Assembly: GCF_012295615.1 (NCBI RefSeq) | Contig: NZ_CP051183.1 | Span: 2,135,001 to 2,199,000, forward strand | Source of the DNA: Bermanella marisrubri | Lineage (GTDB): Bacteria > Pseudomonadota > Gammaproteobacteria > Pseudomonadales > Oceanobacteraceae | Direction: 5' to 3' | DNA: 64,000 bases | In this document: positions 37,328 through 38,042 of the stretch, in pieces | How positions within the stretch are numbered: the first letter of the stretch is position 1 | Layout: each line of letters starts with the position of its first letter | Notes under the pieces: model-generated | Database searches by the model: none | The model's input: only the letters and a program-made list of their open reading frames with translations | What the model was told of the DNA's origin: nothing | Program-made: the position numbers and the translations under genes

Positions 37328-37771
37328 ATGCTTTCACTATTTGATCAAGTATCTTGGCTTCATGTGCTTGGCGGCGGTATCGCCATTGGCCTATCTTCAA
37401 GTGTTTTATTTGCTATGAACGGCCGCATTGCAGGCATCTGCGGCATGGCCTTTTCGCTTATGGCCACAAACATGCGCAATAACCTCTGGCGTATCACCTT
37501 TTTAGTCGCCATGATTGCGGGCACGCAACTTTTTCACTTGGTTTCGCAACGTCCTTTTCCCGATGCGCCAGACAGTTCCTTACCCCTATTAATCATCGGT
37601 GGGCTATTAGTGGGCATTGGTACCTCCATGGCTAATGGCTGCACCAGTGGACATGGCATTGCAGGTATCGCCCGGTTTTCCAAACGCTCCATCGTCGCTA
37701 CGCTCGCCTTCATGGGCGCAGCTATTGCCTGTTACTTTATCGCGCAACATTTACTTGGCTGGGAGGTTTAA
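37328..37771 (+). CDS. YeeE/YedE-family sulfur transporter subunit (PmpA-like)
   Basis: A 147-residue protein with about four membrane helices and the family motif [22 protein letters not shown], whose Cys is conserved in YeeE thiosulfate channels. Shorter family members like this work as two-gene pairs (PmpA and PmpB). Its partner starts 271 bp downstream, but an inverted-repeat element lies between them. The stop TAA is followed immediately by ATG (TAATG) as if the partner had originally overlapped it, with GGGAGG as ribosome-binding site. Confidence 0.85.
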
Positions 37772-37773
37772 TG

Positions 37774-38040
37774 AAGGGCACCTCTTGTAAGTCAATTTGA
37801 CTCTGCAAGATGCCTGTAGTGCTTTCATTCAAGGAAGGCTTCGCAGCGTAATGACGAGTCCTTTCCCAGAAGGCTGACACAAAAGGAAAGTGGTACAGGC
37901 CTTGCCCTTCGGGGCATTGCTCGTGTTCCAACATCTGTGTTGTGATATTTCGATTTAACCAGTTAGACCTTCAATAACACGCCTTGATCTTGAAACACGA
38001 TCAAGGCCAGAGCTTAAAGTGACTTACAAGAGGTGCCCTT
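37774..38040. mobile_element. MITE-like element with 20-bp terminal inverted repeats
   Basis: The ends AAGGGCACCTCTTGTAAGTC (37774-37793) and its exact complement (38021-38040) enclose 227 bp without a credible gene. Inside are a TGCCC-TTCG-GGGCA hairpin (37903-37916) and a GCCTTGATC/GATCAAGGC stem (37981-38007). The left flank ...TTTAATG and right flank AAATG could be a 4-bp target duplication (AATG). The element sits exactly between two genes normally adjacent. Confidence 0.78.
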
Positions 38041-38042
38041 AA

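Follow-up and report, generated by a model that had tools for sequence, protein, structure and literature searches.

The 267-bp element that separates two sulfur-transport genes of Bermanella marisrubri, within the 64,000-nucleotide stretch of genome analysed here (the window), belongs to a widespread and apparently undescribed family of ~265-bp non-coding MITEs. These are probably IS5-mobilised MITEs whose structured core is under selection, in RNA form more likely than in DNA form, while the ends change. Being non-autonomous, such a MITE would depend on an IS5-type DDE transposase that is supplied in trans and acts on the terminal repeats, and its transposition would leave a 4-bp, T-rich target duplication. 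Unlike in an ordinary MITE, selection would act on the folded single strand of the inverted-dimer interior, RNA being likelier than DNA, and the folded core would be kept while the terminal repeats diverged or were swapped, so that the same cargo could be borne by ends of many sequences across Gammaproteobacteria. The multiple copies, empty sites, target duplications, covariation, dimer symmetry, breadth and end diversity reported below come directly from computation. The features of the window locus are as follows.

37328..37771, plus strand: upstream Sulf_transp (YeeE/PmpA-like) gene, PF04143, hereafter gene 1
37761..37766, plus strand: GGGAGG within the gene 1 end; probably served gene 2 as native Shine-Dalgarno, now apart from gene 2
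37771..37800, plus strand: nine-codon frame that opens at the gene 1 stop and traverses the left arm
37772..37775, plus strand: presumed 4-bp target duplication, left copy, TGAA
37774..38040, plus strand: whole non-coding element, 267 bp, with 10 full copies in the genome and empty sites in all six relatives with gene 2
37774..37794, plus strand: left terminal inverted repeat, AAGGGCACCTCTTGTAAGTCA, a perfect 21-bp match to the right arm
37776-38038: conserved core of the subfamily, GGGC...GCCC, inside the 267-bp element
37811..37901, plus strand: hairpin unit 1 (P2) with loop motif GCAGCGTAATGACGAGTCCTTTCC; 78.4 bits with covariance model R2, and covariation
37904..37915, plus strand: central mini-hairpin GCCCTTCGGGGC (P3), the symmetry centre, from alignment and RNAalifold
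37913..38008, plus strand: hairpin domain P4, from model R1 and covariation
37916-38005, minus strand: hairpin unit 2 (P4 read on the other strand), R2 match of 27.5 bits
38020..38040, minus strand: right terminal inverted repeat, 21 bp, pairing perfectly with the left arm
38030..38035, plus strand: GAGGTG, Shine-Dalgarno-like, within the right end, 7 nt before ATG 38043
38039-38042: presumed 4-bp target duplication, right copy, TTAA, with one mismatch to the left TGAA
38043..38471, plus strand: downstream DUF6691/Sulf_transp (PmpB-like) gene, PF20398 and PF04143, intact, hereafter gene 2

The sequence-only reading had taken the element for a mobile insertion. That it is one, and not a chance arrangement, is borne out by 10 full-length copies in the genome and by empty sites in all six same-genus relatives that have gene 2. 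The 18 matching places in the own genome comprise these 10 copies (91-100% identity), five right-end fragments, one internal match of 28 bp and two self-matches, in which the arms of the window copy match one another. The end repeat also occurs elsewhere in the genome, since its 18-bp end found 17 matches at three or fewer mismatches, against one for the reversed control. Comparison with relatives revealed empty sites there, so that the sequence is not common to all of them. By nucleotide search, full copies were absent from the eight other genomes of the genus and from all 43 same-family genomes besides its own (these eight included), where matches were short. Target duplications of 4 bp are exact in four of nine own-genome insertions, a count reached by 744 of 20000 shuffles, and in 11 of the 16 relatives ending in GGGGACATC, where 0.99 would be expected and none of 20000 shuffles reached the count. 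The element thus combines the features of MITEs, being short, non-coding and multicopy, with terminal inverted repeats, target duplication and empty sites. Its terminal repeats are perfect inverted repeats, as had been noted, although they measure 21 bp and not the 20 bp given before. Copies are mostly intergenic (103 of 106, by rough ORF calls), and the same copy set shows no clear orientation preference relative to genes. A coding element was considered and rejected, as the longest stop-free frame per reading frame differs between copies and no shared ORF was seen. Two full copies (L006 and L009, own genome 1609759-1610293) stand head to tail with a 3-bp TAA junction in common, as though the end of one had been the target of the other.

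Within the family, two genomes of a different genus contain related elements (L045-L049) with an internal motif in common, and a scan of GTDB contigs for this motif gave 75 matches in 73 stretches. The hosts included Oceanobacter, Parathalassolituus, Saccharospirillaceae, Nitrincolaceae, Amphritea, Motiliproteus, Marinobacterium, an Osedax symbiont, Vibrio penaeicida and Pseudoalteromonas phenolica. An element filter (240-300 bp, arms matching at 16/20 or more) was passed by 58 of the matches; the other 17 failed on arms or length or were set aside by hand. Covariance model R1, built on P4, found units in 66 of the 390 genomes examined for the order, belonging to 36 of 142 genera. Model R2, built on P2, did so in 53 of 369 for the class, from 42 of 272 genera, and in 20 of 398 genomes sampled across the phylum, among which eight lie outside the class. 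Of the 18 loci that the phylum sample yielded, 16 are flanked by inverted ends agreeing at 16-18 of 18 positions, and none of 68 displaced control windows exceeded 14; of the two exceptions, L271 had an end match of 12 and L280 gave no result. One Vibrio penaeicida assembly alone contained 177 end matches. Beside full elements of this species lie ~60-bp palindromes consisting of two end repeats with almost no core (L143 at 596-656 and L145 at 1476-1535), which resemble REP-sized remnants. Some Oceanobacter/Parathalassolituus copies carry short unit 1 loop insertions or rearranged cores (L141 at 500-1000, L142 at 600-1100), the latter being mosaics of two end types.

No Rfam 15 family matched any element. 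The sole gathering-level match, a glycine riboswitch (RF00504, 59.5 bits; L222 at 1599-1703, genome G422), lies outside the element, ~160 bp from a copy, and a TwoAYGGAY RNA match in L047 (2500-2629) stayed just below threshold at 40.4 bits against a cut-off of 43. Spread by plasmids or phages was considered and set aside, one copy each from G017 and G439 giving no match; the one partial match, obtained with a G422 copy, turned out to be a complete element carried by an Azotobacter chroococcum plasmid. No description of the ~265-bp family was recognised in searches of open-access journal articles.

The interior of the element is an inverted dimer, with two ~90-nt hairpin units facing each other around a small central hairpin. 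RNAalifold, applied to 21 non-redundant elements after three with insertions had been left out, gave an end stem, the long hairpin P2, the small central hairpin and the second long hairpin P4. Rows with deletions, N runs or unresolved ends were dropped, 3 of 21 for alignment A1 and 7 of 21 for A2. In P2, 94.8% of cells are paired and covariation reaches 0.813 against 0.237 when shuffled; the corresponding values for P4 are 91.0%, 0.765 and 0.236. None of 500 shuffles reached the score of either stem, controls with slid partners gave covariation of at most 0.181, and 47 of the 55 base pairs tested have changed on both sides. The 41 units found by model (40 class-wide and one from Azotobacter) show covariation of 0.794 against 0.199 shuffled and keep the motif gCAAGGCGC.g..CGC.gG.AATG...CCTTT.CAAG....GCAACGC.G, in alignments that were fitted to the model and are tilted in its favour. 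The loop motif in A1 and A2 was partly fixed by the search pattern, so that its conservation there is no evidence. On the opposite strand, P4 of the window copy is recognised by model R2 (27.5 bits), and the same holds for 8 of 10 fetched G234 loci, for L242, for the Azotobacter copy and for 11 of a set of 30 loci, the second unit falling below the cut-off in the rest. The window element folds with z = -8.55, and in a single strand of it all parts pair, ends included.

Stem cells hold more G.U than A.C (34:5 in A1, 18:11 in A2, 98:18 in A3 and 62:4 in A4), also when units of each orientation are counted apart. Model-found rows are biased towards G.U, alignments A3 and A4 being fitted to the model and leaning towards the structure, and A2, which is not model-fitted, shows a mild excess only. 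The G.U excess hints that a single strand is functional, for which RNA is the best explanation.

Under this core the ends vary widely. Inverted ends matching at 15/18 or more were found in 26 of the 30 loci tested, and 34 arms (eight reference arms from other lineages included) formed 14 groups at 70% identity. Several of the groups are IS5-like, with GGRRCCTCTGAATAA as the end consensus, and others could not be aligned to IS5-like ends. One conserved core carries terminal repeats of about 14 sequence groups. Within a genome, both arms of a copy tend to be closer to each other than to the arms of other copies: in G692 their identity is 0.952 within copies against 0.739 between (0/5000 shuffles), in the own genome 0.909 against 0.861 (59/20000 shuffles; nine copies, one dropped for an indel), and within-copy matching was reached by 1 of 5000 shuffles in G422 and by 46 of 5000 in G234. 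No within-copy arm concordance was found in G036.

From these results we infer which transposase is involved, selection and not only mutation bias on the structure, RNA as the folded form and a role for the core, and other accounts of the same data need to be weighed. The element could be an ordinary MITE with an unselected core, in which stems stay paired through template switching or quasipalindrome correction between the arms. The joint change of the arms of one copy, strong in G692 and weaker in G422, G234 and the own genome, agrees with this, within-copy homogenisation being the outcome expected of template switching. However, template switching does not conserve loops, and the unpaired or internal-loop motifs CAAGG...GCAAC and CGC.GG.AATG persist all the way from the window element to a second class of the phylum, as do unit lengths of ~88-93 nt; G.U cells outnumber A.C cells, and G036 lacks arm concordance, so that we regard purely mutational pairing as unlikely. 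Equally doubtful to us is that DNA is the relevant fold and RNA irrelevant, a single-stranded element (for example on the lagging strand) presenting its end stem to the transposase. That all parts including the ends pair in one strand, that many copies have perfectly pairing ends, that the two ends of a copy co-vary, and that no orientation relative to genes is clearly preferred would fit such a role. Against it, IS5-type DDE transposases act on double-stranded ends, and an excess of G.U is what RNA would more naturally show, although DNA tolerates G.T as well. That the element is instead a native cis-regulatory RNA of the operon has its strong fold (z -8.55) and its position exactly between partner genes in its favour; it is already refuted, and almost certainly wrong, given 10 copies in other contexts, empty sites in six of six relatives and the target duplications.

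The assignment to IS5 rests on end similarity in another genus and is likely for the window subfamily, as judged from sequence. Loci of DUF772 transposases were sought in five genomes, DUF772 being the sole Pfam family searched in the own genome. G036, a same-family genome that carries the MITE, has a DUF772 locus within a 1156-bp IS with ends GGAGACTCTGAATAAGTCC / GGAAGGTCTGAATAACTGCC, similar but not identical to the ends of the MITE copies in that genome. This locus encodes an IS5 family transposase of 333 aa (NF033581, 333.8 bits). A Marinobacter nauticus VT8 plasmid carries an IS with 85.6% identity to that of G036. None of the IS loci L250-L265 gave an R2 hairpin-unit match. Among the five DUF772 loci of the own genome, no transposase gene has ends matching the window subfamily; these loci (L252, L255, L258, L260 and L262) have GAGGCTGTAGAAAAACC- or CTGTAGAAAAACC-type ends, unrelated to those of the element. 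End scans of V. penaeicida and Oceanobacter/Parathalassolituus gave no autonomous version with the same ends, and the single ends at contig edges that were read belong to element copies and not to an IS.

Among known systems, REPINs are mobile units made of two inverted hairpin units, a plan shared by the element. REP units are ~20-40 nt, carry a GTAG/CGTC tag and depend on RAYT Y1 transposases, whereas the units described here are ~90 nt and lie inside IS5-like terminal repeats with target duplication. The IS5 family (the IS in L251; NF033581) has similar ends of the TCTGAATAAGTCC type but differs in that the IS has a transposase and no hairpin unit. As far as the consulted part of a review of bacterial MITEs goes (PMC10969869), the element resembles them in being shorter than 500 bp and intergenic, with terminal inverted repeats, short target duplications, a stable fold and no transposase; it differs in its inverted-dimer plan, in the many end sequences on one core, and in a core whose covariation is maintained throughout at least one class and in part outside it. 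The same part of the review describes transcript folds in general and no such family (PMC10969869). QMITE1 of Coxiella burnetii, compared by its description, is similar in size (300-400 bp), in its 21-28-nt terminal repeats and 2-4 bp duplications, and has a very stable palindromic fold transcribed as small RNAs; its authors reported no orthologues elsewhere (PMC5896051).

At the window locus, the insertion lies within what is otherwise a tight gene pair. Gene 2 is present in seven of the nine genomes of the genus (its own included), and without the insertion genes 1 and 2 overlap by one base (TAATG) in L039, L043 and L044 and lie one base apart in L040, L041 and L042. Because this holds for six of six relatives, the element split a coupled pair, as had been proposed for the operon from the sequence. 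The place matching GGGAGG reads GGAG or GGGAG in five of the six and GGAAC in L044, and GGGAGG-TTTAATG is present in the window sequence at 37761-37773. A nine-codon frame does open at ATG 37771 (37771-37800), but the suggestion that this ATG was the original start of the partner gene found no support: the N-terminus of gene 2 (MYLIISAICG...) aligns without extension to that of its relatives (MQKIIALLAG...), and this common protein start makes ATG 38043 the most likely native start and 37771 most likely not one. The boundaries GGGC...GCCC of other copies imply flanks TGAA/TTAA and hence a pre-insertion site TAA-T(T/G)AA-ATG with the current ATG as start; by reading of this reconstruction, the native GGGAGG stood 9 nt upstream of ATG. 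We consider it rather improbable that AATG was the duplicated target, with both ATGs copies of one start, a view which has the TAATG of three relatives on its side but needs an extra A.

The proposed replacement of a ribosome-binding site holds only in part. The element parted the sulfur-transport partner gene from its probable native Shine-Dalgarno, GGGAGG having moved away from the start, as the sequence-only reading implied, but in read-through mRNA the GAGGTG of the element is predicted to be buried in the stem of the two ends. The new signal it was thought to supply is well spaced, yet GAGGTG has an unpaired probability of 0.0 in read-through RNA from gene 1, where the left arm pairs with all of it. 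A search for promoter-like sites inside the window element gave none, and the sole terminator-like site lies upstream of it, in gene 1. The unpaired probability of GAGGTG rises to 0.20 with a ribosome held over 37771-37800 and is 0.28 in an RNA starting at 37790. Translation of gene 2 would now rely on GAGGTG in the right end, hidden by the 21-bp end stem of read-through RNA, and a ribosome reinitiating at ATG 37771 and reading nine codons across the left arm could open that stem, so that the folding model points to possible coupling via reinitiation. Since GAGGTG belongs to the transposon end, any service as a Shine-Dalgarno is incidental. Co-option of the element at this locus as an RNA switch, where opening of the end stem by the nine-codon leader would link gene 2 translation to gene 1, is consistent with the TAATG reinitiation site adjoining GGGAGG, with the change in accessibility from 0.0 to 0.20 and with an intact gene 2; nevertheless, the computed effect is modest and concerns one locus only, and we think such co-option quite improbable.

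MITE interiors are usually taken as passive filler, and here a fold is kept class-wide while the sequences that a transposase would be expected to read keep changing. The family allows the direct question of whether MITEs carry selected RNA or DNA structure and what binds it, and also lets one ask whether an old core can recruit new ends, while the covariance models could serve annotators of high-copy elements that Rfam does not name. Tentatively, and with less than even confidence, the 90-nt hairpin unit could itself be the selfish entity, an RNA or single-stranded DNA module whose persistence across Pseudomonadota would come from transport between different DDE transposon ends, its folded state keeping both ends of each copy matched. 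If true, mobile DNA would here have a lineage that is based on structure and tied to no single transposase.
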